Below are positions 7,731 to 63,778 of a stretch of 64,000 nucleotides of DNA, in pieces. The notes beneath the pieces were generated by a model, which was given only the letters and a program-made list of their open reading frames with translations, did not search any database and was not told the DNA's origin. The translations under genes were made by a program, and so were the position numbers. Position 1 is the first letter of the stretch, and each line of letters opens with the position of its first letter. Source of the DNA: Lactarius indigo (Eukaryota; Basidiomycota; Agaricomycetes; Russulales; Russulaceae); NCBI GenBank assembly GCA_025766275.1, contig JAFKAC010000009.1, positions 248,001-312,000 of the forward strand, written 5' to 3'.

Positions 7731-9697
7731 CTAAACGGAGAATAGGTTCAGCGGGTTACATTTATTACAACGGGAAATGACACTGACGACAATGCGGATA
7801 AATGTTGTCGTCCTGTACCCGAGTGGAGCGAATTGCCGCGCGTTGCGAAGACCATCATGATGGTATCGACCATTAACCGCAGCTTGCAGGGAAAGACCAA
7901 GTCTCCCGTCTATACCCTCGAAGAAAATGGGCATCTGCAACACCGCCTCTTCAATATGCCACCTCCTATTACTGTGAGGAGACCACATTGTCTGGGGGAC
8001 CACAGTGCCCCTGTGTACGACAGCGCGGTCGAGAGGCAGAGAAGACCTGTCGAAAGGTTGTCGCTCGGCCCGCTCTAGGGCGTGTCGAGTATTAGTAGGA
8101 CGGACAAAGAAGAAATAGCCTTCTCTGTCGGGGTAAGACAAAGTTTCAATCTGCGGAATGGTGTCACTCTTCAGCAAGTCGAAGAAGTATTGCTCGGCTC
8201 GATAGCTGTGGAAAGTGTGGGCAATGTACCCATGAACGAAAAGGGTCTACGGGAAGAAGGTCGCGTCAAGAGAATGGATTCAGGTTCAGTCTCTCACCTC
8301 AGTACTAGATGTATGCGAGGGGGGGAATGATGAGAATGATGAGTTGATTGGGTGACCTGCGACCCGACGAGCTTGAATGAACGAGTCAAACAGGCCGTGT
8401 GGATGAGCCCCCTTGAAAAAGCTGGCAAGTTCTCGCAGACAGGGTAGAAAACTCGGGACTGATCCTATTTCATCTACCTGCAACGCACGAGAAAGCTCAT
8501 CTAAGAGCATGTCGTAAATACGGAGTCTCTTCACCCCGATAAATGGTCTGAGAAGTTCGTGCCACGTTGTGTCGTCGATCTCACCGTACTGCCATTCGCT
8601 CGGTATCATCCGTCCGTGAAAGTCGAGCGAGAGCTCCTCTACGCCTGATAGCGCAGGCATAAGCGCGCTGCAGACCTGCGCTGCGCAATCGATTTGCCAG
8701 TCCAACTGCTTGCACATTACATGCAACACGAAATTTCCGTCGTTGTGAAGTTCGCCGTGTTCCGTACGGCGGTCCATGATTATGATGGCCGCATCGCCTC
8801 CAAAGTTGACCCTCGCGGACTCGAGCTTGATCGGTTCGGTTATAACGAATTGGGTCAGGAGTGGTAATGTGAAGCCAACTTGATAAAATAACGCGATGTC
8901 GAGTCGCTCCAGAAGAGGGGTCCTAATTTGAGCGATAAGGCATTCCGTATAAGCGCTGACGCCTTGGAACTCGAGGGTTTTCAAGTTGGGAAGCGTCACA
9001 GGAGTTGCTCGTCTGCTCAGAAGTTCCCTCTCTGCACTAGGGCGGGGTATGGGGATGGAAAACCCGATGGAGAGTTCCTCAAGTTGAGGAAGGGAGTGAA
9101 GACGTGCCACCAATAGCCTCGGGAAAAGGTAACCAGAAGCTCGGATGTCCCTGAGCACGAGCGTGACAAGAGAGACAGTGGAGGAGAGAAACCGCAGTCC
9201 TTTCGGAAGGCCAACGCCGGAAAGAACGAGACGGCGTAGATTTGGGGCAAGAAAAGTCATGGGAAGTGTGAGAGTTGTGGTTTTATCAACTGCGATCGAC
9301 AGAGAAAGGTTTTTCAGTCTTTGGAAGGGTCTGTTAATAAGCATAAGGGATTTATGCAAGATCGAAGGCGGGAGATGGAGGTCAATATGGTGTACACGGC
9401 CACCCAAGCGGAGCGCATGATATATTCCCAACTCATCACGGTCACATTCGTATGCCGGTAACTGACGAAGACCGGAAGGGGAGGTAAATGGTCCAGTGTG
9501 TCCACTATAGGGGTGTAATTTGTGCATAGAATACGCAAACCCAGGTGGTGTGCTGATTCGTATATGAGGTAACGCCATCTTTGACAGACTTGAGAGAGCT
9601 TGCGCCACCCGAGCCGGACATTCCAAGCATTTTCCTCATCCAGTCGATAGTAGTCGAATATACAGAGGAGTACATCGTCGTTGAGCCTAATGCCCAT
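7731..9697 (-). pseudogene. F-box protein gene, copy A, frameshifted
   Basis: The start at 9697 gives an F-box-like N-terminus: LNDDVLLCIFDYYRL followed by VCQRWRYLI. It matches the copy-B paralogue, which is open. After about 80 residues the frame shifts: near 9435-9470 this copy lacks a net 13 bases relative to copy B, so the remaining leucine-rich part (to 8298) is in another frame. The long exon ends at 8298 with donor GTGAGA. A 51-nt intron (8297-8247) leads to a second exon from 8246, whose frame is open to 7731. The family acts as substrate adaptor of SCF ubiquitin ligases (family knowledge); the target is unknown. As assembled this copy would make only a truncated F-box peptide. A sequencing error at the indel cannot be excluded, but a 13-base difference makes that unlikely. 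Confidence 0.72.
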
Positions 9698-11604
9698 TGA
9701 TATTCTTGTTGATACTGGTCGCTCAGATGTTAGAGGCAGTAGACTCAGTCTTGGAGCTAGGTATTACGCAGACGTTTGCATGTGGTATCGGAGTAACTAG
9801 ACGCATTAAAACATACTGGGGTGCCTGTACATACTCGACGCCTTGTGAATCGTAAGCCTTGGTGGGGGGTGTAAGAAAAGCCTCCCGCGATTGACAGATA
9901 CCAATGTCGGTGGCTCTCCTTCACTGAGTTGTTGTCCGTCCAGTTTGTTTTCTTTTGTCTCCATGGTGGGTTTGAAGTTAATGGTAGTAGCTTGGGTAGT
10001 AGTATCTTCGGGGTGGCTATGTAACGAGGGCTTAAGGGCATAGGGTTATACATAGGATTATATGTCTGTAGTTTTCTCCGTACGTACAACTACTGCACTG
10101 GTATTCAAAAAGCCACTATACTGTAGGGATCTTAACAATAACGATACAAAGCAAGTGGAAGCGTGACGGCGTTCCTCAGGCTCCACCTCGGAATCGACCA
10201 TTTCCGCCCGTTTCGGCCGACTTGGACTCGGAACCATCGGACCGCCGCATGCTACCCTCGGACAGAGTTCGGACACTCTTCCATGCCACCGACTCGTTCG
10301 TCCGAGTCTTAGCTCGCTTCGCTTCGTCTCGTCTCACCTCACCTTTCCCTCATCCTGCCTGCAAATCTGTCGTTTCTTTCCTCGTCGTATCCCCATCTCT
10401 TCTACCATCGTCAGACCATCGGCCGATCGATGCTGTCGTCTCAAACATTCTCTTTCGTTGGATCGTTCTAGTCTCGCGTTCTCTGTCTCGGGCACAGACG
10501 CCCCCATATTCTTCTTAATTTTACTTTACATTTACTGACGCTCCCTTGTACTATTAGTCTGCGCCGTCGTCATCATCAGTGCCATCATTTGGCCATGCTG
10601 TACCACTTACCGACTCTCATTTTACTTAGGACTCGCGTTTCCTGCCTCGCGCCGGCAGCGTGGTTTCGTTCGTCGAATCTTCCTCTATCATGGACTTTTT
10701 GTTTACTTTCCCCCTGCTACGATGTTTCTCCTCACACATTTTGACTCGTTTGACCTTAGGTACTGACTGGGTGTATACAAGGCTTCGGTGTTCGCGCTCA
10801 ATTCCACACTCAATTTCCCCTGTTTTTAATTTGTCCTCTTTGTGTGAATTGACTGCTCATCGGCTCAGATCTACAACAAAGGCACCCGATATATCGTCTT
10901 CTTCGCGTTCATTTCTCTTTCGTTTTCCTCAAGGCCGAAATTTTTACTCTTACTCGACTATACTACTAACCTCACTCTCACTCTCTATGTCTCAACTTCA
11001 CGATTGTTATTACTAACTTTTGCTACGTGTTTCCAAACTTGAAGAGCTCCTTATCATCTTTCCTACCGCTCTCATACTTACCTAACTTCGCCTGCGTGGT
11101 TTTGCGCGTTCTCGTGAAAGCTTCGACCAATATCCTCCTCAACTCGTCTTCGTTCCTCCTCCTCCCCCCTCATATTCGCAAAGCGATGGACGTTTTATGT
11201 CTTGGGGTCTCTCAATCCCGTTCACTCCGGACTGCTAAGCCTTTAACCCCTCCCCCTCTGCTCTTGTATCCACCCTCTACCCACTAATACTCACGCACAA
11301 GCACGTTTGACGGCCAACAAGTAAATTGGTTATGGGAACCGAGGGAGTTCAAACGACGCCATCACCCCCAGTGAGACAGGCCCTAGCGTGGGCCTAGTAT
11401 TAGCCTTAGATAAGATACGTAGGTCCAGCTGTGCAAGTAAGTTAGTGCATCTACCACCGATCGTGGAGACGTCGTTTTCTCTGCGTCGTTCTTCTCGCAA
11501 GCTGCCAGTGCACGCAAATTCAGTCAAGTGCGTCGTCTCCCTGCAGCCCCTGCGCACCCAGCCCAACCCTAGCACCGCACCCAAAGTCGCACGCACACAG
11601 TCCG
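9698..11604. other. Intergenic, pyrimidine-rich, no gene recognised
   Basis: Upstream region of the copy-A F-box gene. From about 10240 to 11290 the plus strand is rich in T and C, which creates long but unbiased plus frames with no motif. The equivalent stretch in copy B (15105-17040) differs by many indels that do not keep frame, which argues against coding. It probably contains the F-box promoter on its left side. Confidence 0.5.
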
Positions 11605-11815
11605 CGGACTCTTCCCACTCGAGCAAACGCCCGACATGATCTCGCTACTCGCGGGAAGCCCAATGCAGCGCTATTCCCGCTCACAGGCGTCCAGTTCACC
11701 GCGCCACGCATAGATGGTGGCTCCAACGCCGAGGATGTAGAGCTCGTCATCGGAAGGTGCTGGCCCGTCTGGTTGAACTCGTATCGGCGTGTCTAGGCTG
11801 TACATGCGCACGTGA
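11605..11815 (+). pseudogene. Aminotransferase-like N-terminal fragment
   Basis: At the junction between the two duplication copies, two adjoining frames read MISLLAG and then GKPNAALFPLTGVQFTAP, separated by what looks like one missing G near 11660. This resembles the N-terminal signature of fold-type I aromatic/kynurenine aminotransferases, where a MISLAGGxPNxxxFP motif is typical (family knowledge). The piece continues to about 11790 before stopping, and no catalytic lysine region is present. It would be a broken end fragment captured at a rearrangement breakpoint. The assignment rests on one short motif and is tentative. Confidence 0.35.
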
Positions 11816-11825
11816 ACCTTGCTGT

Positions 11826-12266
11826 ATCTGCGGAAACGCTCGAAGAGTGGCGTGCGCTCAAAGCCGGCGTCGGCATTGGGTGCAAGGTCATCGACCGTGC
11901 GCTCGAGGATGCCGCCGCGATCTGCGCTCCTACGAGCCAGCGGCAGAAGGCAGCCGATTCTACAACATCTACAATAGCACAGCAACAGCGTGGCTGGCAG
12001 ATTGGCGTGGAGCGGGGCTTGCCTCGCACGCGTTGTTGTGTGTCGGTGAGAGCGCGGTCGTGTTCTTCGCGATGAGCCCGTTCATGCCTCACCAGTACGT
12101 CGCGCCCGGTGGTCCGACACACTACGACCGCGCGGCGTGGTCGAGCTTTAATACAATGCATGCGACCGATGAGGGCTTCCCTGGTGAAAGCACGACGGCT
12201 GTGTGGAATTTCCTGGGTAGGGTCGGAGGTGGTGCGGCGCGCATCGCACGTGGATCGCCAACCTAG
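11826..12266 (+). pseudogene. 3' fragment of the coiled-coil gene (duplicated, frameshifted)
   Basis: This corresponds to the last 150 or so residues of the gene at 3612-6895, including the membrane segment (ASHALLCVGESAVVFFAMSP) and a C-terminus ending Ser-Pro-Thr instead of Trp-Pro-Thr. The beginning, VSAETLEEWRALKAGVGIGC, is in one frame. After the QRQK stretch (about 11945) the frame changes, and several bases are lost relative to the parent (the YVYGGNT segment). No promoter, start or upstream exons are present, so it is a truncated duplicate left by the tandem duplication. Confidence 0.85.
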
Positions 12267-12848
12267 TTACCTCAGCTCTTCCGTCCTTCTTCCGTCCTTT
12301 CATTTTCCGCCTCCACCTACTGCGGCCCGCTGACACAGCAGCGCCTGAATCTTCATCGAATCATCCATCGGTGGCCACCACAACCACAACACCACATTGC
12401 CAGTCTCCGAGCTATTCATCGCAGCCTTACATTCGTGTAACTATCCCTACAATTTCTTGTTACAGTATATTATGTCGCCGGACTAATACCCATGGTCATA
12501 TCATATTACCTTGTAGACAGACACTCTTTACTCGGTTTCGTTTCTCGATTCATGCCTATGCTCGCTCTCCTTTTTTTACTACATTCAAAATATTTCTTGG
12601 AGCTGTCTATCCATGCACGAGACCGCTCCATCGTCGATCTACTCGATTTGTGACCATGATTATTTTTGACACTGTACCTGCCATAAGTACATGTACTATG
12701 CCAACTTGCCCAGTTGTGTCATCTGACGTGGGGTAAACCTGATACATTTAAGGAGGAACAAGGGACGTGGACAGATATCAGAGAATGTAACGATTGAGTT
12801 GCAAGATTGGCATCCAGCTCCCCGCAGTGACGTGAACTGCTCCAATAA
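12267..12848. other. Flank duplicated from 6896-7700, no gene seen
   Basis: Copy-B equivalent of the 3' flank of the coiled-coil gene. Nearly colinear with copy A, including CTTGTTACAGTATAT and a TGTGACCATGATTATTTTTG block. No coding sequence is recognised. Confidence 0.5.
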
Positions 12849-15104
12849 CTATGATGTCGCTTCGCTGGATGCCAGACGGCCCGATTTGCCACTGTTTGCG
12901 CCTGCTGTCGGTAGAGCCAGGGTCCGGCTCGCAAGTCTGGTGAGGGAGAAAAAGAGCTCAGCACAGGTGTTGTCCTTAGTGGATGAGAAGATCCGACTGA
13001 CTCTGAGAAATGCATCCACAAATCGCCCAATATGATGGGCGAATCTGGAAATGGTTATTGGGTTGTGCTCGCTCGTCTCGTCACGGATCTGAACCTGGCG
13101 CTTGAAATCTTTGTAGCCGAGCCACTGAAAGGAGAACAGGCTCAGTGGGTGACATTTATTACCACGAGAAACGATACTAACGACAATGCGGATATGTGTT
13201 GTCGACTTCTGCCCGAGTGGAGCGAATTCCTGTGCGTTGCGAAGACCATGGCATCGGCCCGCAGCCGCGGCTTGCAGGGAAAGACCGAGTCTCCCGTCTA
13301 TACCCTCGAAGAAAATGGGCATCTGCAACACCGCCTCTTCAACGTGCCGCCTCCTATCAGTAATGGTGTACGGAGACCACAGTGTCTGGGGGACCACAAT
13401 ACCCCTGTGTACGACAGCGCAGTCGAGAGGTCGAGAAGACGTGTCGAAAGGTTGTCGCACTAGGGCGTGTCGAGTATTAGTAGGACGGACAAAGAAGAAA
13501 TGGCCTTCTCTGTCGGGGTAAGACACAGTTTCAATCTGCGGAATGGAGTTACTCTTCAATAAGTCGAAGAAGTATTGCTCAGCTCTGCGGCTGTGAAAGG
13601 TTTGGGCAATATACCCGTCGACGAGAAGGTTCTATGAGACGAAGGTCATATCAAGAGGATGGATTCAGGTTCACATACGCACCTTAGTACTGAATGTGTG
13701 CGAGGGTGGGAATAATGGAAACGATGCAAAGACTGGGCGACCTGCGGCCAGACGAGCTTCGATGAACGGGTCAAACAGACGGTCTGAACGCGCCCCCTCG
13801 GAAAAGCTAGTGAGTCCTCGCAAATTGGGTAGAAATCCAGGGTCTAATCCTATTTCATCGACCCGCAGGGCACGAGAAAGCTCCTCTGAGAGCGATTCGT
13901 AAATATGGAGTTTCTTCACCCCAATAAACGGTCTGAGAAGTTCGTGCCACGTCGCCCCGTCAATCCCACCGTCCTGCAATTCGAATGGCATCACCCGTTC
14001 GTGAAAGTCGAGCGCGAGATCCTCTACACCTGACAGCGCGGGCATGAGCGCGCTGCAGACCTGCGCTGCGCAGTTGATTTGCCAGTCCAACTGCTTGCAT
14101 ATCACACGCAAGACGAAACTTCCGTCGTTGAGAAGTACGCCGTTCCGTTCTGTATGGTGGTCCACGATTATGGAAACCGCATCGCGCCCGAATTTTACCC
14201 TCGCGGACTCGAGCTTGATCCGTTCGTTTATAACGAAATGGGATAGGAGTGGTAATGTGAAGGCGATTTGATTGAATATCGCGATGTTGAGTCGCTCCAG
14301 AAGAGGGACCCTAATTTGAGCAATAAGGCATTCCAGATAAGCGCCAACTCCTTGGAACCTAAGGATTTTCAAGTTAGGAAGTGTCACGGGAGTTCCTTGT
14401 TTGCCCAACAGTTCCCTCTCAGCGCTGGGACGGGGTAGGGGGATGGAAAAACCAATGGAGAGTTCCTCGAGTTGGGGAAGGGATCGAAGACGGGCCACTA
14501 ATAGCCTCGGGAAAAGGTAGCCGAATGTTCGGATGTCCCTGAGCTCGAGTTTGACGAGGGAGACAGTAGAGGAGAGAAACCGTAATCCTTTTGGAAGGGT
14601 GACGCCAGAAAGGGTGAGATGGCGTAGATTTGGGGCAAGAAAAGTCTGGGGAAGTATGAGAGTTGTGATTGTATCGATTGTGACCGAAAGAGAAAGGTGC
14701 TCCAGTCTTGTGAAGTATCCTCCATTCATGAGCATAAGGGATTTATGCAAAATCGAAGGCGGGAGACGAAGGTCAATATGGTGTACACGGCTACGTAAAC
14801 GGAGCGCGTGGTATATTCCCAACTCGTCTCCCTTCCATGTGGCCACATTTGTATGATGCCGGTAACTGACGAAGACCGGCAGGGGAGGTAAGTGGTCTAG
14901 TGTGTCGACTATAGGGGTGCCGTTCGTGCATAGAATACGCAAACCCAGGTGGAATGCCGATTCGTATATTATGAGGTGACGCCATCTTTGACAAACATGA
15001 GAGAGCTTGCACCACCCGAGCCGGAGATTCCAAGCATCCCCCTCATCCAGTCGATAGTAGTCGAATATACTGAGGAGTATATCATCGTTGAGCACAATGC
15101 CCAT
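12849..15104 (-). CDS. F-box protein with leucine-rich region, copy B
   Basis: Start ATG at 15104 gives MGIVLNDDILLSIFDYYRL, an F-box-like N-terminus, then VCQRWRHLII. A long leucine-rich body follows with repeating L-x2-L-x-L patterns typical of the variable substrate-binding part of mushroom F-box proteins. Exon 1 is 15104-13683. A 51-nt intron with donor GTGCGT and acceptor CATAG (13682-13632) is supported by the same intron in copy A, and without it the frame stops at once. Exon 2 starts at 13631 in phase 0 and is open to 12849. The copies diverge after about 170 residues of exon 2, so the true stop or a further intron may lie near 13100. Expected role: SCF ubiquitin ligase substrate receptor (family knowledge); no target can be named. 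Confidence 0.78.
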
Positions 15105-17040
15105 TAATATTCGTGTTGATACTGATCGTTCAGGTGTTGGAGGAGGTGGATTCGGAGCTAGGTTTCATGGAGATGTTTGGATGTGGTATCAGAGTAACTA
15201 GACGCATAAAAACATACCGGTGTGATTGTAGATCCCCGACGTCTCTGGAACCGTAAGCGTTGCTGTGGTGTGTGTAAGAAAGACCTCCCGCACTAACAAG
15301 GAATCAATTGAACGATCGACAGATGCCAATGTTAGTGGCCCTCTTTCACTGAATCACTGACCTTCACTGAGTTGTTCTCCGTTCAGTTCGCTTTCTTTCG
15401 TCTCCAGGGCGGGTTTGAAATTAATGGTAATAGTAGCTTCGAAGTGGCTACATAACGAGGACTTGAGGCCATAGGGTTATGCCTGGGGTTATATGTCAGT
15501 AGTTTCCGTATATAGAACTACTGCACTGGTATTCAAAAAAAAACCATTATATGGATCTTAACAATAACGATACAAAGCCAGGTGAAGCGTGACTGGACGC
15601 CCAACCCGAAGCAACATTCGAAACAGTGTAAGGGCCTTCCTCCGCCTCGCAATCGACCATTTCTGCCCGTTTCGGCGAGGTTTCGGCCAATTTGGAACCA
15701 TCGGACCGCCGCGTGCTACCCTCGGACAGTCCTCGGACTCTCTCTTCCATGCCACTGACTTGTTCGTCTCAGTTCGCTTCGTCTCACCTCACCTTTCCCT
15801 CATCAGCTTGGGAATTTGCCGTCCCTTGCCTCGTCGTATCCCCATCTCTTCTGCCATCGTCAGACCCTCGGCCGATCGACATCGTGCTGTCGTCTCCTCA
15901 AACATTCTCTTTCGTCGGATCGTGCTAGCCTCGCGCTCTCTATCTCGGGCACAGACGCGCCCATATTCTTCTTGACGTTCCCATGTACTATTAGTGCACG
16001 CCGTCGTCATCACCAGTACCGTCGTTTGGCCATGCCGTACCACTCACAGACTCCCATTTTACTTAGGACTCGCGTTTCCTGCCTCGCGTCGGCAGCGTGG
16101 TTTCGTTCGTCGACTCTTCCTCTATCATGGACTTTTTGTTTACTTTCCCCCTGCTCCGACCTTTCTCCTCACACATTTCGACTCGTTTGACCTTAGGTAC
16201 TGACTGGGTGTATACAAGGCTTCGGTGTTCGCGCCCAATTCCACACTCGATTTCCCCTGTTTTAATGTGTTCTCCTTATGTGAATCAACTGCTCATCAGC
16301 TCAGGTCTAGAACAAAGGGACTCGACTTATCGTCTTCGCGTTCATTTCTCTTTCGTTTCCCTCAAGACGAAAACTCTCTGTCTCAACTTCGCGAGTGCGT
16401 CATTAACTTTTGCTAGGTGTTTCCAAACTCGAAGAGTTCCTTATTAGCTTTTCTACTGCTCTCGTAATTTCCCGACCTCGCATGGGTGGTTTTACGCGTC
16501 CCCGTGAAACTTCGACAGATCTCCTCCTCGACTCGTCTTCGTTCCTCCTCCCCTCCCCACATATTCGCAACGCGATCGACTTCCTATTGTGTCTTAAGGT
16601 CTCTCTCAATCCCTTTCGCTCCAGACTGCTAAGTCCTTAACCCTTCCTCCCCTACTCCCGTATCCCCCCTCTACCCACGAATACTCATGCATGAGGACGT
16701 TCAACGGTCGACAAGCACATTGACCATGACAGTCGAAGAAGTTCAAACGACGCCATCACCCCCAGTGAGACGGGCCCTGGCGTGGGCCAATTAGGCTTAG
16801 ATAAGGTACGTAGGTCCAGCAGTGCAAGTAAGTTAGTGCATGTATCACCGAGCACGGAGACGTCGTTTTCTCCGTGTTGTTCTCTGCGTCGTTCTTCGCG
16901 CAAGCTGCCAAGGCGCGCAAATTGTCAAGTGTGTCGCCTCCCTGCAGCCCCTGCGCACCCAGCCCAACCCTAGCACCACGGCCAAAGACGCATGCACACA
17001 GTCCGCGGACTCTTCCCGCTCGGACAAACGTCTGGAGTGA
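15105..17040. other. Intergenic, copy-B pyrimidine-rich region
   Basis: Upstream of the copy-B F-box gene and colinear with 9698-11640. It contains T/C-rich stretches (about 15690-16680) with frames that are not conserved between copies. No gene was recognised. The last 300 bases match the block preceding the aminotransferase-like fragment in copy A. Confidence 0.5.
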
Positions 17041-21298: not shown

Positions 21299-21908
21299 TG
21301 ATGAACAGCAAACACAGAGGGCATACTCACAGAGACAAAGTAGACTGTGGTGAGATATGCTGGAGTGCTGGAAGCAGAGGTGAGACAGGGATCTTGCAAG
21401 TAAAGCAAAGGGAGTCTGGCACACAGCAGTGAGAGAACTGATGTTGGTATTACAGTGGAGAGAACATACCTGGCACACAGCAGTGAGAGAACTGATGTGG
21501 ACCAGGAGCGTACAAGCACTACTACTTATACTGTACAGAGGTGTGACACTAGTACAAGAGTGGTAACGTAGAGTCACAGAATACAAGGAACGTTGTTCTA
21601 CATACAGGACAAAAGGAGTGTATGAAAAGAGAACAAGGCAACTAGAACAAGTAGAGTCCAGACAAAGATGATATCATAATGACATCACAATAAAGATAAG
21701 AATTAAAGGAGAACAAAGAAATGAAGTGTCTGGAGTGTTCTACATGATGTCATAGTACATGATGTCATACATGACGCAATGATCAGCGCTAGATTGTACA
21801 GATCAAATGTAAGTAATCTACAGGTCCAATTTAATCTAATCTAAAGCAGTCCATGCTGCAAGTCCAGTCCGTACAAGCCACTAAGTGCGCAAGGGTCACT
21901 TATCAACA
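21299..21908 (-). repeat. Copia-2 3' LTR (610 bp)
   Basis: Begins TGATGAACAGC and ends TTATCAACA on the plus strand. It contains a direct repeat with the word TGGCACACAGCAGTGAGAG (about 21416-21444 and 21472-21499), and a TATA-like box, element-sense AGTATAAGTAG, near 21520. Confidence 0.9.
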
Positions 21909-22684: not shown

Positions 22685-23194
22685 TGTTACGCTCCACCGG
22701 CATTAGTCCGACTTGGACTCGTGAAGGCTGTAATCGACTTAGCGGAGGTCAGGCGAATGGGGAACACGTGTCAACCCAACGCAGGCTGAACAGGGGCACA
22801 CTGGCACACACTGCAGTAAGGGATGTAACGAAGAGTATCCCTTGGTGGATACAAGTGGAAGCACTCTTAGTTTCAAGACTAAGGCAGGCGAGAGACGAAT
22901 CAGATGGTGGATTGAAGAAGACCAAGATGGGGACTCTTGGTCTTCCGAGTCAACTACTTATACAGATACGCGCGGGCTTTAAAGCGCCGCTGGAATAGTA
23001 AGTAACCAATAGCGTAACTAGCTCAAACCCTAGTACAGCTATCCTAGGAATGAGTCATACATGAGTCACAATCACATGCGAACTACTATGCTGACTGATG
23101 TGAAGTAAGAGTCCATGACTAATGCTAATACCGGACCGTAGTCATAACCGGTCGTGAGTCGTGTGTGATGAGTCATTAAGTCCGTACCGTAACA
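22685..23194 (-). repeat. Gypsy-1 3' LTR (510 bp)
   Basis: Plus strand TGTTACGCTCC...CCGTAACA. Carries the TATA-like box (22957-22963) and the 11-nt word complementary to the primer-binding site (22918-22928). Confidence 0.93.
22918..22963 (-). promoter_or_regulatory. Gypsy-1 LTR TATA box plus self-primer word
   Basis: Element-sense GTATAAG, then 34 nt from TATA start to ATCTTGGTCTT (22928-22918). That word is the exact reverse complement of the sequence two bases inside the 5' LTR (37973-37983). The same pair sits at 38219-38264 in the other LTR. TATA spacing predicts transcription starting at or next to this word, the arrangement of Tf1-type self-priming elements. Confidence 0.7.
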
Positions 23195-29479: not shown

Positions 29480-30245
29480 TGTCACGGACGCTCTATTTCT
29501 GCCTTATTTTTCCGTATTTTTACGGACTTATTTGGTGAAAGATACGAGACTCCAACGTTGCGCTCAAACATCCAAGTCCTTATCACTAGATATGATAAGA
29601 TGGTTAGTCACGTGATGCCAACATGTGCACCCATAAGCACGTGACCCTGGGATAGTAACTTCCTTAACGGATGTTACCTCTTTAGTCACTTTCCTCATTA
29701 GTATAGTAGTTTCTCATTGGACGATAAGCAGGGAAGGCTCTAGATAGTTCTAGACTACGTTGTCATAGGGTTGTGATAAGGACACGTCATTGTTCTGTCA
29801 GCGTTAATGACTGTGCATCAGTCAGCACAATAGATAACGCTATTATTAGACACGACGCGTCAGCGTCTGACTCATTACTATTACATGTACCTTTAGTAAC
29901 AAGGTTTAGTAGTAATTCGAACTCAGCCGCAGCAGTGTATATAAACCCTCATGTAGCGTCCTGAGTGGAACCAACTTGTCCTCTTGGTTCTCCACTCAGG
30001 TGCGTATTCCCTTTGTACTTCCCTCACTTCTCCAATATTAACTTGTCCTCTTGGTTCTCCACTCAGCGTGCCACTGTGTGATCATCTTGCCTTTGACCTT
30101 GCATAAAGGTCTTAAGTGTGCATACTCTCCGCAGTGACTGTACGTTCGGCGCGTGACTTGTCTCCGCACTAGGCTTGGGTGTGCACCTGTTCAGTTCACT
30201 TACACTTTCCTTGGTCTAGTTGTCGCGATAAGTCATACCGCTACA
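29480..30245 (+). repeat. Gypsy-2 5' LTR (766 bp)
   Basis: Starts TGTCACGGACGC and ends ATACCGCTACA. It contains two CACGTG boxes (29609-29614 and 29638-29643), a TATATAAA box (29938-29945) and a 27-bp direct repeat at 29973-29999 and 30040-30066 that includes the primer word. Confidence 0.95.
29938..29999 (+). promoter_or_regulatory. Gypsy-2 LTR TATA box, self-primer word and hairpin
   Basis: TATATAAA at 29938, then AACTTGTCCT at 29973-29982 (35 nt from TATA start). That word is the reverse complement of AGGACAAGTT just inside the LTR (30248-30257). It sits in the loop region of an inverted repeat, GAGTGG-A-ACCAA / TTGGT-TCT-CCACTC (about 29963-29997). The sequence is unrelated to the Gypsy-1 primer but the geometry is the same. 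Confidence 0.65.
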
Positions 30246-30247
30246 TT

Positions 30248-30257
30248 AGGACAAGTT
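30248..30257 (+). promoter_or_regulatory. Gypsy-2 primer-binding site (self-complementary)
   Basis: AGGACAAGTT, two bases after the LTR end, complementary to AACTTGTCCT in the LTR. No match to a tRNA 3' end (no TGG start) was seen. Confidence 0.6.
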
Positions 30258-36717: not shown

Positions 36718-37483
36718 TGTCACGGACGCTCTATTTCTGCCTTATTTTTCCGTATTTTTACGGACTTATTTGGTGAAAGATACGAGACTCCAACGTTGCG
36801 CTCAAACATCCAAGTCCTTATCACTAGATATGATAAGATGGTTAGTCACGTGATGCCAACATGTGCACCCATAAGCACGTGACCCTGGGATAGTAACTTC
36901 CTTAACGGATGTTACCTCTTTAGTCACTTTCCTCATTAGTATAGTAGTTTCTCATTGGACGATAAGCAGGGAAGGCTCTAGATAGTTCTAGACTACGTTG
37001 TCATAGGGTTGTGATAAGGACACGTCATTGTTCTGTCAGCGTTAATGACTGTGCATCAGTCAGCACAATAGATAACGCTATTATTAGACACGACGCGTCA
37101 GCGTCTGACTCATTACTATTACATGTACCTTTAGTAACAAGGTTTAGTAGTAATTCGAACTCAGCCGCAGCAGTGTATATAAACCCTCATGTAGCGTCCT
37201 GAGTGGAACCAACTTGTCCTCTTGGTTCTCCACTCAGGTGCGTATTCCCTTTGTACTTCCCTCACTTCTCCAATATTAACTTGTCCTCTTGGTTCTCCAC
37301 TCAGCGTGCCACTGTGTGATCATCTTGCCTTTGACCTTGCATAAAGGTCTTAAGTGTGCATACTCTCCGCAGTGACTGTACGTTCGGCGCGTGACTTGTC
37401 TCCGCACTAGGCTTGGGTGTGCACCTGTTCAGTTCACTTACACTTTCCTTGGTCTAGTTGTCGCGATAAGTCATACCGCTACA
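36718..37483 (+). repeat. Gypsy-2 3' LTR (766 bp)
   Basis: Same sequence as 29480-30245 as far as read by eye, followed by the GGTTG duplication. The 27-bp repeats and TATA box recur at the same offsets. Confidence 0.95.
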
Positions 37484-37972: not shown

Positions 37973-37983
37973 ATCTTGGTCTT
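37973..37983 (-). promoter_or_regulatory. Gypsy-1 primer-binding site (self-complementary)
   Basis: Element-sense AAGACCAAGAT two bases after the 5' LTR end (...AACA TT). It is the exact reverse complement of ATCTTGGTCTT in the LTR. Confidence 0.65.
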
Positions 37984-37985
37984 AA

Positions 37986-38495
37986 TGTTACGCTCCACCG
38001 GCATTAGTCCGACTTGGACTCGTGAAGGCCGTAATCGACTTAGCGGAGGTCAGGCGAATGGGGAACACGTGTCAACCCAACGCAGGCTGAACAGGGGCAC
38101 ACTGGCACACACTGCAGTAAGGGATGTAACGAAGAGTATCCCTTGGTGGATACAAGTGGAAGCACTCTTAGTTTCAAGACTAAGGCAGGCGAGAGATGAA
38201 TCAGATGGTGGATTGAAGAAGACCAAGATGGGGACTCTTGGTCTTCCGAGTCAACTACTTATACAGATACGCGCGGGCTTTAAAGCGCCGCTGGAATAGT
38301 AAGTAACCAATAGCGTAACTAGCTCGAACCCTAGTACAGCTATCCTAGGAATGAGTCATACATGAGTCACAATCACATGCGAACTACTATGCTGACTGAT
38401 GTGAAGTAAGAGTCCATGACTAATGCTAATACCGGACTGTAGTCATAACCGGTCGTGAGTCGTGTGTGATGAGTCATTAAGTCCGTACTGTAACA
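37986..38495 (-). repeat. Gypsy-1 5' LTR (510 bp)
   Basis: Pair of 22685-23194, same length. TATA and primer word are at 38219-38264. Flanked by CATCA at 38496-38500. Confidence 0.93.
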
Positions 38496-42820: not shown

Positions 42821-42835
42821 CCAGGGCCCATAACC
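42821..42835 (-). promoter_or_regulatory. Copia-2 primer-binding site (half-tRNA iMet type)
   Basis: Element-sense GGTTATGGGCCCTGG directly after the 5' LTR. Its complement, CCAGGGCCCATAACC, matches the anticodon stem-loop of eukaryotic initiator tRNA-Met (CAU inside GGGCCCAUAACC). Drosophila copia uses such an internal half-tRNA primer (family knowledge). Confidence 0.75.
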
Positions 42836-43445
42836 TGATGAACAGCAAACACAGAGGGCATACTCACAGAGACAAAGTAGACTGTGGTGAGATATGCTGG
42901 AGTGCTGGAAGCAGAGGTGAGACAGGGATCTTGCAAGTAAAGCAAAGGGAGTCTGGCACACAGCAGTGAGAGAACTGATGTTGGTATTACAGTGGAGAGA
43001 ACATACCTGGCACACAGCAGTGAGAGAACTGATGTGGACCAGGAGCGTACAAGCACTACTACTTATACTGTACAGAGGTGTGACACTAGTACAAGAGTGG
43101 TAACGTAGAGTCACAGAATACAAGGAACGTTGTTCTACATACAGGACAAAAGGAGTGTATGAAAAGAGAACAAGGCAACTAGAACAAGTAGAGTCCAGAC
43201 AAAGATGATATCATAATGACATCACAATAAAGATAAGAATTAAAGGAGAACAAAGAAATGAAGTGTCTGGAGTGTTCTACATGATGTCATAGTACATGAT
43301 GTCATACATGACGCAATGATCAGCGCTAGATTGTACAGATCAAATGTAAGTAATCTACAGGTCCAATTTAATCTAATCTAAAGCAGTCCATGCTGCAAGT
43401 CCAGTCCGTACAAGCCGCTAAGTGCGCAAGGGTCACTTATCAACA
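42836..43445 (-). repeat. Copia-2 5' LTR (610 bp)
   Basis: Pair of 21299-21908, same length. Followed by target duplication ATAGG (43446-43450). Confidence 0.92.
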
Positions 43446-44874: not shown

Positions 44875-45352
44875 TGTTACGCTCCACCGGCGTTAGTCCG
44901 ACCTGGACTTCGAGGAAGGCGTAATCGACTTAGCAAAGCAAGGGCGAATGGGGATCTTGTATCAACCCAACGCAAGCTGAACAGGGGCACTCTTGGCACA
45001 CGCTGCAGCTAAGATGAAGAAGTACTATCCCTTGGTGGATAGGAGTGGAAGTACTCTTAGTCCAAGACTAAGGCAAGACGAATCGGAAAGGATGTGGATT
45101 GAAGAAGACCAAGATGGGGCTCTTGGTCTTCCGAAACAACTATTTATACAGATACACGCGGGCTTTAAAGCGCCGCTGAGACGATAGGAAACCAGTAGCG
45201 TAACTAGCTCGAACCCTAGTACAGCTATCCTAGTAATGAGTCATGTATGAGCCACAATCACATGTGTACTACTACGATGACTGATACGATGTAAATGTCC
45301 ATGACTAATACTATGAGTCGGTCCGTAGTCATAACCGGTTGCGATCGTAACA
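44875..45352 (-). repeat. Gypsy-3 3' LTR (478 bp)
   Basis: Plus strand TGTTACGCTCC...GATCGTAACA, related to the Gypsy-1 LTR. Element-sense TATAAATA (45148-45141) is followed after 33 nt by ATCTTGGTCTT (45115-45105), as in Gypsy-1. The partner LTR and its primer-binding site are outside the window. Confidence 0.88.
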
Positions 45353-51600: not shown

Positions 51601-52052
51601 TGTTACGATTCTCGTATTGGACCCTTACTGTACCGGTTGTGGCTACGGCTGTAAGGTATATTAGTCACGGACTCGGGGTTTACGATAGGAGTTAGGCGTT
51701 GGGAGATGACTCGATCCTAGTACAGGCAGTAGTAGTATTAGGATTGTGGTACTTACGCGATACGTTGGACGCTACGATACGGTGACTCATAGCAGCGCTT
51801 GAAAGCCTGCTTTTCTTGTATTTAAGGGAGCCGCAAAAGACCAAGATACGCCATCTTGGTCTTCTTCAATCGTCACTTCTTGTCTTCATCTTCCTTTCGC
51901 CTTTGCCGCAGCAGGAGCAAGGCCGCAGTTATACTAGTGTCTTCGAACATCTAGACAAAGCCTTCGTGCCATACGCCTCGAGGCGTGACCAGCTAAGTCA
52001 TCAAGTCGCCTTCATCGAGCTCAAGTCGAGCTAACGCTGTGACGGCGTTACA
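51601..52052 (+). repeat. Gypsy-4 5' LTR (452 bp)
   Basis: TGTTACGATTC...GGCGTTACA. Related to the Gypsy-7 LTR (shared GCGATACGTTGGACGCTAC), and shares the primer word with Gypsy-1 and Gypsy-3. Confidence 0.85.
51819..51863 (+). promoter_or_regulatory. Gypsy-4 LTR TATA box, hairpin and self-primer word
   Basis: TATTTAA at 51819-51825, then a perfect 11-bp inverted repeat: AAGACCAAGAT (51837-51847), loop ACGCC, ATCTTGGTCTT (51853-51863). The second arm starts 34 nt after the TATA start and is the exact complement of the primer-binding site at 52055-52065. Confidence 0.72.
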
Positions 52053-52054
52053 TT

Positions 52055-52065
52055 AAGACCAAGAT
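52055..52065 (+). promoter_or_regulatory. Gypsy-4 primer-binding site (self-complementary)
   Basis: AAGACCAAGAT two bases after the LTR end. Pairs with ATCTTGGTCTT of the LTR over all 11 bases. Confidence 0.68.
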
Positions 52066-52096: not shown

Positions 52097-52522
52097 TGTT
52101 ACGGTTCCGAGGGACCGTACAGATGTTTCTGCGGAGCTGAGCTCGACGCGCTGGTAGAGTCGGGACTTGTTCTGTGAACAAGTCAAGCTTCGGGGGTTTC
52201 TAGGCTCAACTCAGAGAGTATCGCTAGAGAGAGGGGAGGGCACACGGGGTTTCGAGACGAGGCAAACTAGATCGGATTCAAGAACTAAGAGTAGACAAGT
52301 AATCTACTTGCTACTCGACTACCTTTATACTCGTACAAGACTGGGGTTTTCGGGGACCGTTTTCTACAAGCCACGTCACCTATCTCTGCTACGTGGACGA
52401 TTCGTGATACTAGCACCATAAGGCGTGCTCAAGGCGAAACCAAACTTCTGTAAAACTTTCGAGGACCAAACCATGGACGCGCGTTGCGTGACGTGACGTC
52501 ACGATGTCACGTGATCGTGACA
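52097..52522 (-). repeat. Gypsy-5 3' LTR (426 bp)
   Basis: Plus strand TGTTACGGTTCC...GATCGTGACA. Element-sense U3 start is dense in palindromes: CACGTG (52508-52513) and the CRE-like TGACGTCA (52494-52501). TATA-like TATAAA is at 52329-52324 and the primer word at 52296-52286. Confidence 0.95.
52286..52329 (-). promoter_or_regulatory. Gypsy-5 LTR TATA box and self-primer word
   Basis: Element-sense TATAAAGG, then 33 nt from TATA start to GTCTACTCTTA (52296-52286). That word is the exact complement of TAAGAGTAGAC next to the 5' LTR (58864-58874). An upstream AGTAGA can pair with TCTACT in the word to form a short hairpin. The other LTR has the same at 59064-59107. Confidence 0.7.
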
Positions 52523-58785: not shown

Positions 58786-58863
58786 GCGTCCGTCTGGGAC
58801 TGTCCGTGCTGTTTCGACTGTTTCAGGGAACGCCTTTCGCCTCGTTCAGCGGCAGAGTAGAGG

Positions 58864-58874
58864 GTCTACTCTTA
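58864..58874 (-). promoter_or_regulatory. Gypsy-5 primer-binding site (self-complementary)
   Basis: Element-sense TAAGAGTAGAC directly after the 5' LTR, pairing with GTCTACTCTTA in the LTR over 11 bases. Confidence 0.66.
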
Positions 58875-59300
58875 TGTTACGGTTCCGAGGGACCGTACAG
58901 ATGTTTCTGCGGAGCTGAGCTCGACGCGCTGGTAGAGTCGGGACTTGTTCTGTGAACAAGTCAAGCTTCGGGGGTTTCTAGGCTCAACTCAGAGAGTATC
59001 GCTAGAGAGAGGGGAGGGCACACGGGGTTTCGAGACGAGGCAAACTAGATCGGATTCAAGAACTAAGAGTAGACAAGTAATCTACTTGCTACTCGACTAC
59101 CTTTATACTCGTACAAGACTGGGGTTTTCGGGGACCGTTTTCTACAAGCCACGTCACCTATCTCTGCTACGTGGACGATTCGTGATACTAGCACCATAAG
59201 GCGTGCTCAAGGCGAAACCAAACTTCTGTAAAACTTTCGAGGACCAAACCATGGACGCGCGTTGCGTGACGTGACGTCACGATGTCACGTGATCGTGACA
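58875..59300 (-). repeat. Gypsy-5 5' LTR (426 bp)
   Basis: Pair of 52097-52522; no difference noticed. Followed by AGAGA. Confidence 0.95.
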
Positions 59301-59305
59301 AGAGA

Positions 59306-61271
59306 TCAGTGGACGAACTTCCGTCCCTACCATCTAGACCGAAGAGGAGACCGCAACGTACCAACTCGATTCCTAGGAGCAGCCAGGTGGAGAGACCGAG
59401 GAGACGAGACCGGATACTTTGTAGAGTTCAACGGACCTACAAGGTTCAGACCTGTTGAGTTCAATTTTGACCGCCTGTGTTGGGTAGAGATTACGTGGAA
59501 CCCCGTAGACCGCCGCTGGGACGTTGTCAGACCAGCAGGAAGACAATACCAGTGCGATATAGACGCACGCGAACTCAATTCACGGGCCGATTGGGGACCC
59601 ATTGACGGCCAATTGCGAGAACATTCCACTGGAGAAGTGGTCAGCAAAGAAATCGAAGAAGAACAAAGTGAGGAAGGACAACCCGCGAGTGTCGGACCTA
59701 TTGAGCAGTATACCATCCAACGAGCTGAGTCTCTACACATCTCAGAAACCCCAGAAGTCATTCACGTACGATCACCAGCAGCAGAAATGGCGACTACCAC
59801 CATGACGGCCGAAGAGATTATGGCTGTCAGAGAACAGGCGGCGCGAGAAGCTGCCGAAGCAATTAGACAAGAGTCACAACGAAATCTCATGCCCATTAAC
59901 CCTGAAACAGGGCACCGCATGACAGCAGACGACGCGGCAATCTTTCGGGCTATCGGACCCGACCAAGGAGACCCTCCGTCAGGGGATGGAGCAAGACGAG
60001 AATTACCACTAGACCCTCCACCAGGATGGGGAGGACCACCGGGGGACGACTTTCCCCGGCACCCAGGAAGAGGAGGGAACCCGCCTGATCTCCCGAATAA
60101 CCCACCAGGAGGAGGTCCTCCAGGAGGAGGCAGGGGCGGTGGTGGTGGCGGCGCAGGAGGGGGAGGACACGGACATGAGAAACTAACCGGTGAACCCCCC
60201 ACCATCTTTGACGGAGACCGTACTAAAGTGGATTCATTCCTCACGCAATGGCACGTGTACTGGGGAATGAACCTCGACACCCCCGTCATGTGCAACGACT
60301 ATCGACGAAGCCTCCTCTTCCTGTCCTATATAAAGGGGGTATCAGTCAGCGAATGGGTACTTTCGTACCTCAAATGGCTCAATCGGCAGATACAGCGGGG
60401 GATAGACCAACACACACGTGACCTGTGGAACGCGGTAGCAGAGGGATTTAACCAAAGGTTCGTCAACACCCTCGAACAAGAACAGGCTCAAGCGCTCCTT
60501 AGAAAAGGGCTCAAGATGGTTGATGGAGATATTGACAAGTACGTCAATGAGTTTGAAGAAGCCGCCAGGAAGGCCGGATACCGCCTCAACGACCCCCAAA
60601 CAATCGACCTCTTCACAAAGGGGTTGCCCAAGAAACTTTACGAGAAAACCTACGATCTGGACGAACCAGAGATGTTCGACGAATGGAAACGAGCGACGCT
60701 CCGAAGGCAACGTAACTACATCCACATCCGTGCGCGAGTGGATGAGTACAAGGACACCAAACCCAAGAAGACAGGCAATGCCGGGTGGACCGTCCCCCAA
60801 AATCTCGCCAACCCATGGGCGATGGACACCTCCGCAGACCGAACAAAGGCGCGACTAGCAGGATCGGAAGAGATCGACTACAGTAAGCCGCCGTATACTG
60901 GCCTACCCCCTTTCCCACCAAGGGGAGGGCCAGGAGCCAGAGGGCGAGGACGGGGAGGGTCACGACGAGACCTAAGGACAGTGTTGTGTTATAACTGCAA
61001 CGCGCCAGGTCATCTCTCACGAAACTGCCCCCATCCTAGACAGCCACGACAGTGGCAACCACAAAACCCTGGACCTTCCAATGTTCGGATGACGGAAACC
61101 GACTACTACACGCAAGAGTCTCCACCAGCCCAGATACAGGCCGCCTCGACCAGCAAAACGGCTGAAGAACGCGCCAAAGAATGGCTCACCGGAGTTGCAA
61201 ACTCGCCCGACGAAGTAAAAGATCTGATATTGCAGGATCTATGGGGGAAAGAGGGTTTTCGGAGCGCCTGA
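59306..61271 (+). CDS. Gypsy-4 pre-Gag and Gag
   Basis: Continues the frame begun at 52074 after removal of Gypsy-5. Pre-Gag: DQWTNFRPYHLDRRGDRNVP, GYFVEFNGPTRFRPVEFNFD, LCWVEITWNPVDRRWDVVRP, close to Gypsy-1. Then an acidic linker and a helix (MATTTMTAEEIMAVREQAAR). A long Gly/Pro-rich stretch follows (about 59980-60180), then capsid-type Gag (IFDGDRTKVDSFLTQWHVYW, VSVSEWVLSYLKWLNRQIQR, NTLEQEQAQALLRKGLKMV). An Arg/Gly-rich segment, zinc knuckle CYNCNAPGHLSRNC (about 60990-61030) and a C-terminus ending GKEGFRSA complete it. It is open throughout in this segment and overlaps Pol at the GGGTTTT heptamer. It is interrupted only by Gypsy-5, which separates it from its promoter and first codons. 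Confidence 0.9.
61253..61259 (+). promoter_or_regulatory. -1 ribosomal frameshift heptamer, Gypsy-4 gag/pol
   Basis: G GGT TTT in the Gag frame (GAG GGT TTT CGG), 10 bases before the Gag stop codon. A -1 slip enters Pol at ...GFSERLNPSAW. Confidence 0.75.
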
Positions 61272-62464
61272 ACCCATCGGCCTGGGTGAGGGCTTTAAAC
61301 TGTAATTCTGTAATCATGACGCGCTTTCGTTCTCTTCGAATTCCAGTCTCGATTCGCACGAATTACCGAATGGCCGACATAAGAGCATTGGTGGATTCAG
61401 GGGCCACCGACAACTTCATACACCCGAATTTTGTCAAGAAGATGGGCATAGGGGTCCAGCAATTAAACCAACCACGGAAAGTCTGGAATATAGACAGCAC
61501 GGAAAATAAAGCTGGGTCCATCATTCACTTCACCGACCTAGACGTATACGCCAATGGGTACCACAGAACCATGCGATTCCTCGTTACAAATCTTGGGAGC
61601 AAGGAAATCGTCCTAGGATATCCTTGGCTGGCGACCTACGAGCCAACCATCAACTGGCGAGACGCGGTCATACACGAAAAGGTTATGCCGGTCGTAATCA
61701 GCACGCAGGACAGTCTAGACCGACATACCGTCATCGCGACCACTCTAACTAACGAAGAAAAGGAAGCAATAGCCCTCGAATTGGATGAGGAAGACACGTA
61801 CTTGCGAGCAACTACGTCTACAGAATTGGCAATCCAAGCGAAAGGGGGGGAGGAGCCCGTGGAACTGCCGGCAGTCTACCACGCCTTTCAACAACTCTTT
61901 AGCGAAGAAGCATCACAACGATTTCCCCCTGCCAGGCCATGGGATCATGCAATAGACTTCAAACCCAATACCCCCTCGGCAATAGACTGCAAGATATACC
62001 CGTTAACGCAGGAAGAAGAAGGGAAACTTAAGGAGTTCCTAGATGAGAAGCTGCAGCAAGGGTACTTAAGACCCTCCATCTCCCCGTACGCATCTTCGTT
62101 CTTCTTCGTTAAAAAGAAGGACGGAAAACTATGTCCCGTGCAGGACTATCGAACAATTAATTCATACACCATACGAAATCAATACCCACTTCCCCTGATT
62201 CAAGACCTCATTTACGACCTTAGCAACGCCCACATTTATACGAAGCTCGACATCCGCTGGGGATACAACAACATCTGCATACGGGACGGTGACCAAGAAA
62301 AGGTGGCCTTCAAGACCAAGTTTGGCCTTTTTGAGCCGACGGTCATGTTCTTCGGTCTCACCAACTCACCGGCCACCTTCCAAACAATGATGAACCATAT
62401 CTACCGTGATACCATCGCGAAACACGAACTCCGCGGGACTGTTATTCGTGTCTACATGGACGAC
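61260..62464 (+). pseudogene. Gypsy-4 Pol N-terminal part, cut at the RT active site by Gypsy-6
   Basis: Entered by -1 frameshift from Gag. Protease ALVDSGATDNFIHPNF (about 61390) and an aspartyl-protease body with VLGYPWLATYEPTINW follow. The linker with EEASQRFPPARPWDHAIDFK leads into RT: IDCKIYPLTQEEEGKLKEFL, FFFVKKKDGKLCPVQDYRTI, YTKLDIRWGYNN, LTNSPATFQTMMNHI. KLCPVQDY has Cys where relatives have Arg (KLRPVQDY), consistent with CGT-to-TGT. The frame is open up to VIRVYMDD and there meets the Gypsy-6 LTR, directly after the two catalytic Asp codons. The rest is beyond the window. Confidence 0.9.
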
Positions 62465-63033
62465 TGTTACGATTTTCTTGGACTCGTTTCTTTCCTTATC
62501 ACAATTTCCTTCCCACACCACACGAGCCCTGTACGATTACGCGGACGTTACGATTACCCGGTTTCTATCACGCGCCTTGCTTATCGACGTTCTCTTGTGA
62601 TAAAGCTTGACATGTGCCAGTTTCCGACTTGTTCCCTCTCACGCGCGACCCCGCGTGATTCTCCTTTACTCTCGATATATCTCTGCTTTGTTCCCTTTAT
62701 GTTCGTTCCTTTCTTCCTCGACTTGGCAATGGCGCCATCTGTTTGCGGTGGCCATACAGTACGATTTCTATTTAACTCTGGTCATACCTAGCTTGTATGG
62801 TAGACTAGACTTCTTGTGTAAATACTACACTCATCTACACAGAGTCTCCTTGTTCCCCGACCCTCGTCTTTGCTAGGCCTTCGAGTCTTAGCCCTCCTCT
62901 ACAGTCCAAGTGACGTACGTCCTTGTGGCTCTTGTGCATCATTTCTACTGAAGTCGAGCCTTTGAGCTTTGACTACCGAGCGACAGACTGACTTAGTACA
63001 GGTCGTACTCAACGCCCCTGTAGTGGCGTTACA
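62465..63033 (+). repeat. Gypsy-6 5' LTR (569 bp)
   Basis: TGTTACGATTTTC...AGTGGCGTTACA. Only the ends resemble the Gypsy-4 LTR. Contains TATTTAA (62769-62775) and the primer word at 62802-62812. Confidence 0.75.
62769..62812 (+). promoter_or_regulatory. Gypsy-6 LTR TATA box and self-primer word
   Basis: TATTTAA, then 33 nt from its start to AGACTAGACTT (62802-62812), the exact complement of AAGTCTAGTCT just inside the LTR. Confidence 0.68.
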
Positions 63034-63035
63034 TT

Positions 63036-63046
63036 AAGTCTAGTCT
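63036..63046 (+). promoter_or_regulatory. Gypsy-6 primer-binding site (self-complementary)
   Basis: AAGTCTAGTCT two bases after the LTR end. Pairs with AGACTAGACTT in the LTR over 11 bases. A fourth primer sequence in the same arrangement. Confidence 0.66.
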
Positions 63047-63296: not shown

Positions 63297-63778
63297 TGTA
63301 ACGCCGTCACGACGTTAGCTCGACTTGAGCTCGATAAGGCGACTTCGGGACTTAGCTGATCACGCCCTGGGGCGTATGGCTCGAAGGCAAGTTCTAGATG
63401 TGCGCAGACACTAGGATCTTGGTAGCTCTCCTTTGAAGCGGAGACTCGGAAGGCAGGTATAAAGGAGACAAGTGACGATTGAAGAAGACCAAGATGGCGT
63501 ATCTTGGTCTTCACAAGACAGTTTAAATACATAAACGAGCAGGCTTAGAAGCGCTGCTATGAGTCACAGTAAGTAGCGTCCAACGTATCGCGTAAGTATC
63601 TCAAACCCTAGTACTACTAGTACCAGTATCGGTGGCGTTGTCCTCAGTCAGCTATCAGTACCGTATCTCCTATCGCACTACCATATCACCGCACGTCGTA
63701 AGTAAGTCCGTCACTAATATACCTTACCGCCGTAGTGACAACCGGTACAGTAAGGGTTCCATACGTGAGACCGTAACA
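63297..63778 (-). repeat. Gypsy-7 3' LTR (482 bp)
   Basis: Plus strand TGTAACGCCGTC...GACCGTAACA. Element-sense related to the Gypsy-4 LTR (shared CCTTACTGTACCGGTTGT and GCGATACGTTGGACGCTAC). Confidence 0.82.
63485..63529 (-). promoter_or_regulatory. Gypsy-7 LTR TATA box, hairpin and primer word
   Basis: Element-sense TATTTAA (63529-63523), then inverted repeat AAGACCAAGAT, loop ACGCC, ATCTTGGTCTT (63511-63485). The second arm starts 34 nt after the TATA start, as in Gypsy-4. The primer-binding site is outside the window. Confidence 0.68.

Follow-up and report, generated by a model that had tools for sequence, protein, structure and literature searches.

Probable self-priming of Ty3/gypsy retrotransposons by a word of their own LTR in Lactarius indigo

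LTR retrotransposons that are primed by a tRNA carry a PBS that starts with TGG or matches the 3′ end of a tRNA. The 64,000-nucleotide stretch of Lactarius indigo DNA analyzed here, hereafter the window, consists of nested LTR retrotransposons, among them the gypsy elements G1 to G7 and one copia element, and its gypsy PBSs raise the question of what starts minus-strand DNA synthesis in these elements. The first-pass annotation of the window read the gypsy LTRs as carrying their own primer, in the manner of Tf1. This Tf1-like reading is supported by shuffled and swapped sequences, by a new word that emerged from a word-blind scan, by joint change of word and PBS, and by tRNA and element controls; the gypsy elements very probably start minus-strand DNA, as Tf1 does, with a short LTR word with which their own mRNA likely begins.

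Nested elements and their word/PBS pairs

In the layout of the window, G2 (plus strand) interrupts G1 (minus strand), G4 (plus) apparently sits inside G3 (minus), G5 (minus) appears to be placed just past the G4 PBS, and the LTR of G6 (plus) appears to cut G4. The frame at 61181-62791 belongs to G4, is interrupted by G5 and is truncated by the G6 LTR, while G7 (minus) is visible only by its 3′ LTR. Target duplications of 5 bp fix the LTR ends of G1 (CATCA), G2 (GGTTG), and G5 (AGAGA). The 5′ and 3′ LTRs of G1 (37986..38495 and 22685-23194, minus strand) are identical at 505 of 510 positions, those of G2 (29480..30245 and 36718-37483, plus strand) at 766 of 766, and those of G5 (58875..59300 and 52097-52522, minus strand) at 426 of 426; since the LTR pairs are identical within each, G2 and G5 are probably recent insertions. 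The copia LTRs (42836-43445, the 5′ LTR, and 21299-21908, minus strand) are about 99.8% identical and have G1 and G2 between them. The window also holds a tandem duplication of about 5.4 kb (6442-11629 and 11823-17030) with 80-85% identity, and three scanned frames of this duplication gave no Pfam match.

In the two elements scanned for domains, G1 and G2, the pol is of Ty3/gypsy type and its integrase carries a C-terminal chromodomain. Both encode gag, RT, RNase H, integrase, a Tf2-1-like SH3 domain, and a chromodomain, with RVT_1, RNase H, SH3_Tf2-1, and Chromo above cut-off in each; the integrase core (rve) lies above cut-off in G2 and just below it in G1, and the protease match above in G1 and below in G2. 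The best PDB match of the G2 pol by sequence is Ty3. The G4 pol piece includes RT and is cut off before the integrase.

In each of the 10 gypsy LTRs located in the window, a TATA-like box is followed by the word, 33-35 nt on from the box's first T, a spacing that the first-pass annotation had described for every gypsy LTR, and each of the five visible 5′ LTR junctions bears an exact complement of the word, 10-11 nt long and 0-2 nt inside the element, again as described. In G4, whose 5′ LTR (TGTTACG...CGTTACA) occupies 51601..52052 on the plus strand with its terminal CA at 52051-52052, the TATA-like box TATTTAA (51819..51825) lies 34 nt before the predicted RNA 5′ end and self-primer ATCTTGGTCTT (51853..51863), and the PBS AAGACCAAGAT (52055..52065) lies 2 nt past the LTR end; the coordinates first recorded for box, word, and PBS are correct. 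The predicted self-primer of G1, also ATCTTGGTCTT (38219..38229, minus strand, TATA 34 nt upstream), pairs with AAGACCAAGAT (37973..37983), and that of G6, AGACTAGACTT (62802..62812, plus strand, TATA 33 nt upstream, LTR end 63033), with AAGTCTAGTCT (63036..63046); in these three elements the pair is 11 nt long at a gap of 2 nt. G2 has a 10-nt pair at the same gap, between the predicted word AACTTGTCCT (29973..29982, plus strand, TATA at 33/35) and AGGACAAGTT (30248..30257), and G5 pairs the predicted word GTCTACTCTTA (59064..59074, minus strand, TATA 33 nt upstream) with TAAGAGTAGAC (58864..58874) over 11 nt at gap 0, or over 10 nt at gap 1. G3 and G7, whose 5′ junctions lie outside the window, carry ATCTTGGTCTT in their 3′ LTRs (45105..45115, TATA at 33 nt, and 63485..63495, TATA at 34 nt, both minus strand). 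With G5 taken in its 10-nt form, the words end 3′ in CTT, G2 excepted. The pairs had been called four unrelated ones; they are distinct, but not all are unrelated, the RT pieces of G4 and G1 being 78% identical.

In G2 the word and its following bases are tandemly duplicated (about 27 nt, within 29960-30070), with the copies 67 nt apart. The second copy (30040-30049, plus strand) has no TATA in the preceding 45 nt, the TATA spacing being held by the first copy only, which itself lies inside a longer inverted repeat (CTGAGTGGAACCAA ... TTGGTTCTCCACTCAG).

Complementarity of this length is rare in comparable sequence. Dinucleotide-preserving shuffles of the LTRs averaged about 5 nt, and for each element 1-3 of 400 shuffles came to 10 nt or more; the equal complementarity in shuffled LTRs that the first-pass annotation had named as a refutation was not seen. 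False LTR ends had a complement of at least 10 nt in 14 of 1777 cases and random positions in 43 of 20000, and PBSs swapped between elements paired over at most 8 nt, except in the swap between G1 and G4, which have a common word.

Word/PBS pairs across the genome and the tRNA comparison

The pairing was pursued in the window's own genome (90.3 Mb, 291 contigs). The PBS pattern GTWACATTAAGN8C occurs at 889 sites, against 21 for its reversed control, and a G2-type PBS pattern at 80 against 0; the 11-mer AAGACCAAGAT occurs at 5970 sites against 77, a count in which word, PBS, and upstream arm are taken alike. Forty junctions were then picked on LTR end and PBS alone, from GTWACATTAAGN8C (among 100 matches listed of the 889) and two narrower patterns, 27 of them as variants or from variant-only searches. 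Thirty contain an exact 11-nt word, seven match at 10/11, two at 9/11, and one (L135), which is without a TATA, at 7/11. When the PBSs were permuted among these 40 loci, exact words averaged 7.2, with a maximum of 17 in 10000 permutations.

A second sample consisted of 20 stretches set by their distance upstream of matches to the G5 RT (20 of the 150 listed) and read by a word-blind scan that required no TATA. Eighteen of the 20 have an exact pair of 10-11 nt with a TATA at 33-35 nt (first TATA-like match). In the other two, L103 and L114, no pair was found, nor any resemblance to the LTR-bearing stretches used for comparison (L099, L102, and L115); their 5′ ends are probably missing, and both are still counted as misses. 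This sampling returned a pair that had not been predicted, AGACTTGGCTT/AAGCCAAGTCT, whose word is found in 4 of the 18 paired stretches, from a family 66-67% identical in RT. Among the G5-like families the distance between word and LTR end is 198-211 nt or 140-141 nt, with the TATA spacing unchanged.

When all samples were pooled, 51 of 65 fetched junction candidates paired exactly over 10 nt or more, the 65 comprising the 40 pattern-chosen junctions, the 20 RT-guided stretches, and L094-L098, with L094-L096 entered as misses (51 of 62 without them). The TATA was sought 28-38 nt upstream in this count, and no exact pair was lost thereby. Among the 62, the 11 misses are nine inexact pairs and two stretches without an LTR, L043 being scored by its 10 matching bases. 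L142-L148, which were fetched for the arm test described below, were left out of the 65; two of these seven show a junction, both inexact.

Three of five loci fetched by the G5-type pattern (L094-L096), at best candidate LTRs, were without a complement. All three (contigs C215, C222, and C226) have a repeat GGGTAACA followed by TAAGCGTTGAACCCC, which is junction-like and has four sites in the genome. Two pattern searches for new families were rejected: CGTWACATTB gave 216 sites against 156 in the control, mostly chance among the matches listed, and GTAACATAAG gave 12 against 9, eight of them G5-type, with no complement in the three fetched of the other four.

Across the pooled candidates the distance from TATA to word is 34.0 nt (sd 0.86) and that from word to LTR end 224 nt (sd 52), and all the exact full-length words begin at a pyrimidine-purine step, the purine being their first base. 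Since the TATA spacing is fixed while the distance to the LTR end varies, the word is tied to the promoter, like an RNA start, and from this spacing and the pyrimidine-purine start it is predicted to be the RNA 5′ end. That the pairing instead arises by chance or from the composition of the LTRs can hardly be credited. Shuffled LTRs do reach 10 nt at the low rate given above, and the word-blind scan met a second, TATA-less pair of 9-10 nt in 5 of the 20 stretches, as expected by chance; against this stand the exact complements at all five window junctions, the 51 of 65 candidates, the fixed TATA spacing, and the new pair found without reference to any known word.

A tRNA, or a fragment of one, might prime the gypsy elements and leave the LTR complement as a by-product, an explanation that we consider very improbable. 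The four gypsy PBS types were compared with 35 tRNA genes (of 63 hits, several isotypes being absent). The longest match was 6-7 nt, no better than that of shuffled PBSs against the same genes (mean 7.1-7.2 nt); at most 1 nt matched at any tRNA 3′ end, the first 8 nt contained no TGG, and internal tRNA stretches in the same 35 of 63 hits gave nothing beyond shuffles. The first-pass annotation had named a better tRNA match to each PBS as evidence against self-priming, and none was found among these genes. A tRNA primer would also leave the joint change of word and PBS, described below, unexplained. In its favor, the compared set is incomplete, at 35 of 63 hits and an additional tRNA-Met, with several isotypes absent, and priming by a tRNA fragment probably does occur in this genome: the PBS of the window's copia element, GGTTATGGGCCCTG (42822..42835, minus strand), is complementary over 14 nt to the anticodon region of a tRNA-Met(CAT) gene. 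The copia element, whose junction in the window shows no self-complement, thus appears to be primed by an internal tRNA fragment.

As a further control, L119 (C201:602600-612400) is a Ty3/gypsy element with 294-bp LTRs and a stop-free frame of 1712 codons, in the scanned C-terminal 982 of which no chromodomain was detected. In this one element there was no self-complement above 7 nt and no match above 8 nt among the tRNAs examined. The sequence past its 5′ LTR starts with CTTGATCAAG, a palindrome. A second non-chromovirus stretch, L120, was excluded for want of an LTR pair in 9.8 kb.

Joint change of word, PBS, and upstream arm

The 30 exact loci among the 40 pattern-chosen junctions fall into several matched states, in which the word is AGACTCGACTT (11 loci), AGACTAGACTT (7), ATCTTGGTCTT (6), AGACTGAACTT (2), AGACTGGACTT (2), AGACTTGACTT (1), or ATCTTGGACTT (1). 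Within one clade the middle bases of the word vary jointly with the PBS (TAG, TCG, TGA, and TGG). The covariation-like support claimed for the pairing holds as regards joint change, in the form of matched states across loci, but compensatory selection is not required as its cause: if the word is the primer, reverse transcription can recopy the PBS from it, and matched change is then a prediction of the mechanism and need not have been selected. At two further 5′ junctions taken from another test, L143 and L147, the word is changed and the PBS unchanged; L143 is a 5′ LTR, and its likely 3′ LTR partner, L144, has the same word. The word at these two loci has moved on ahead of its PBS, so restoration of the pair is not immediate. 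Some of the inexact pairs (L042 and L128) would fit CpG decay of a matched ancestor.

Under self-priming, transcription would begin with the word's first base, the word would fold back onto the PBS, and the RNase H domain would cut after about nucleotide 10-11, freeing the word to prime U5-R synthesis. Plus-strand copying of the primer would then rebuild a matching PBS and keep the pair matched as the word drifts.

The same helix could instead serve leader folding, packaging, or translation control, with something else as the primer. In 13 folded leaders the mean probability of the word:PBS helix was at least 0.83 in nine, 0.51-0.56 in two, and 0.31 in one; it was 0.00 in G5, where a local hairpin beside the PBS wins in the fold. 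Pairing is thus favored in 9 of 13 leaders, and sequence alone does not separate priming from another use of the helix. Such a use is nevertheless very improbable, given that in each of the five window elements the complement occupies the precise canonical position of a PBS, 0-2 nt from the LTR end, that the tRNAs examined offered no other primer match, and that copying of the PBS from the primer simply accounts for the matched changes. Folding was rejected as independent support, the helix in the 13 leaders being no likelier than with the rest of the leader shuffled. In G5-type elements (58850-58874 of the window, minus strand, and L099 and L109) the PBS is followed by an inverted partial self-copy, AGAGTAG ... 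CTACTCT, which is shorter in L109.

A feature absent from the first-pass annotation is an inverted copy of the word, or arm, just upstream of it in G1, G3, G4, and G7, which belong to the ATCTTGGTCTT clade (clade A); 5-6 nt separate it from the predicted start. In G4 it is AAGACCAAGAT (51837..51847, plus strand), between the TATA and the predicted RNA start, in G1 AAGACCAAGA (38236..38245, minus strand), and in G7 it spans 63501-63511. The arm was 10-11 nt long in all seven clade A loci examined (p of 0.0005 or less each). As a general feature of self-primed elements it was rejected, being strong in clade A only: clades D and E and five of six clade B loci have no arm beyond shuffles, the clade B exception being L040 (p = 0.0045), and a 6-7 nt arm of AGAGTAG type in 12 of 13 clade C loci does not exceed its shuffles.

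Clade A arms can change with the pair. L129 displays a three-way change, with arm AAGTCCAAGAT, word ATCTTGGACTT, and PBS AAGTCCAAGAT, and its arm and word recur in L148, its likely 3′ LTR, and once elsewhere, in L142. A genome search with a variant-arm pattern gave 26 rows, with four sites on both strands, one of them an unrelated chance match; removal of this match and of three double rows left 21 variant clade A LTRs, whose strand was called from the spacer and checked in LTR context for seven. Thirteen have an arm G opposite a word T (G·U in RNA), three, from two places (L142, and L129 with L148), have an arm T with a word A, and in five the arm-word pair is broken.

One conceivable role for the clade A arm at the end of U3 is that of a built-in mask of the word in the 3′ LTR, with word, PBS, and mask changing jointly. 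The arm would be missing from the RNA 5′ end and would lie next to the word where it recurs in the 3′ LTR; by folding over this 3′ word it would leave only the 5′ word free to find the PBS. Such a role is speculative and on balance unlikely: 5 of the 21 variant LTRs break the pair, the other four clades lack the arm or, one clade B locus apart, show it without significance, and matched arms could also arise by template switching at an inverted repeat.

Relation to known self-priming systems

Self-priming is established for Tf1 and has been called common among Tf1/sushi elements (PMC10085805, PMC7175516, PMC6317226, and PMC4600332). The window elements have the domain type of Tf1 and appear to act like it. 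Like Tf1 and Tf2 of Schizosaccharomyces pombe, they are Ty3/gypsy elements with a chromodomain (in G1 and G2) and an RNase H domain, and the first 10-11 nt of their predicted mRNA are complementary to the PBS that adjoins the 5′ LTR. The likeness is drawn from domains and published descriptions, and, unlike in Tf1, start and cleavage are predicted only. The ‘pretzel’ leader of Tf1 (PMC10085805), with its three duplexes, was not recovered by folding the 13 leaders, the extra duplexes not being reproduced. A further difference from Tf1 is that the words differ between families of one genome and that clade A adds the upstream inverted copy.

In a basidiomycete, Tf1/sushi-like self-priming has already been proposed for Tcn1 of Cryptococcus neoformans, while Tcn2-5 may use a novel priming mode, according to PMC7175516. 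As described there, Tcn1 resembles the window elements in that self-priming is proposed for both, and the novelty of the idea is less than the first-pass annotation implied. Among fission-yeast elements, Tj1 of S. japonicus and Tosmo/Tcry have a 5′ LTR self-primer complementary to the PBS (PMC4600332 and PMC10085805), and the window elements are likened to them by description. For the plant Tcn1 clade and TAR, self-priming has been predicted where 10 bp or more of the LTR are complementary to sequence starting 0-5 bp past its end (PMC6317226); all five window junctions have such a complement, the hosts in that case being plants and TAR a Ty1/copia element. Neither a tRNA primer nor a self-primer was found for SM-Tcn1 of Selaginella (PMC2864245). 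The window copia element fits the copia type primed by an internal tRNA fragment, and the window gypsy elements are without such a match in the tRNAs examined.

A limited literature search turned up no earlier inventory of primer words for a single basidiomycete genome, and, as far as the consulted literature shows, the presence of several co-varying primer words in one genome, together with the clade A arm, is new. The priming mechanism was first demonstrated in fission yeast, and a single genome with several likely self-primed clades, and several distinct matched words among them, offers a natural covariation series for it. In such elements RNA start sites would be predictable to the base from DNA alone, and the matching of primer and PBS during drift becomes testable.
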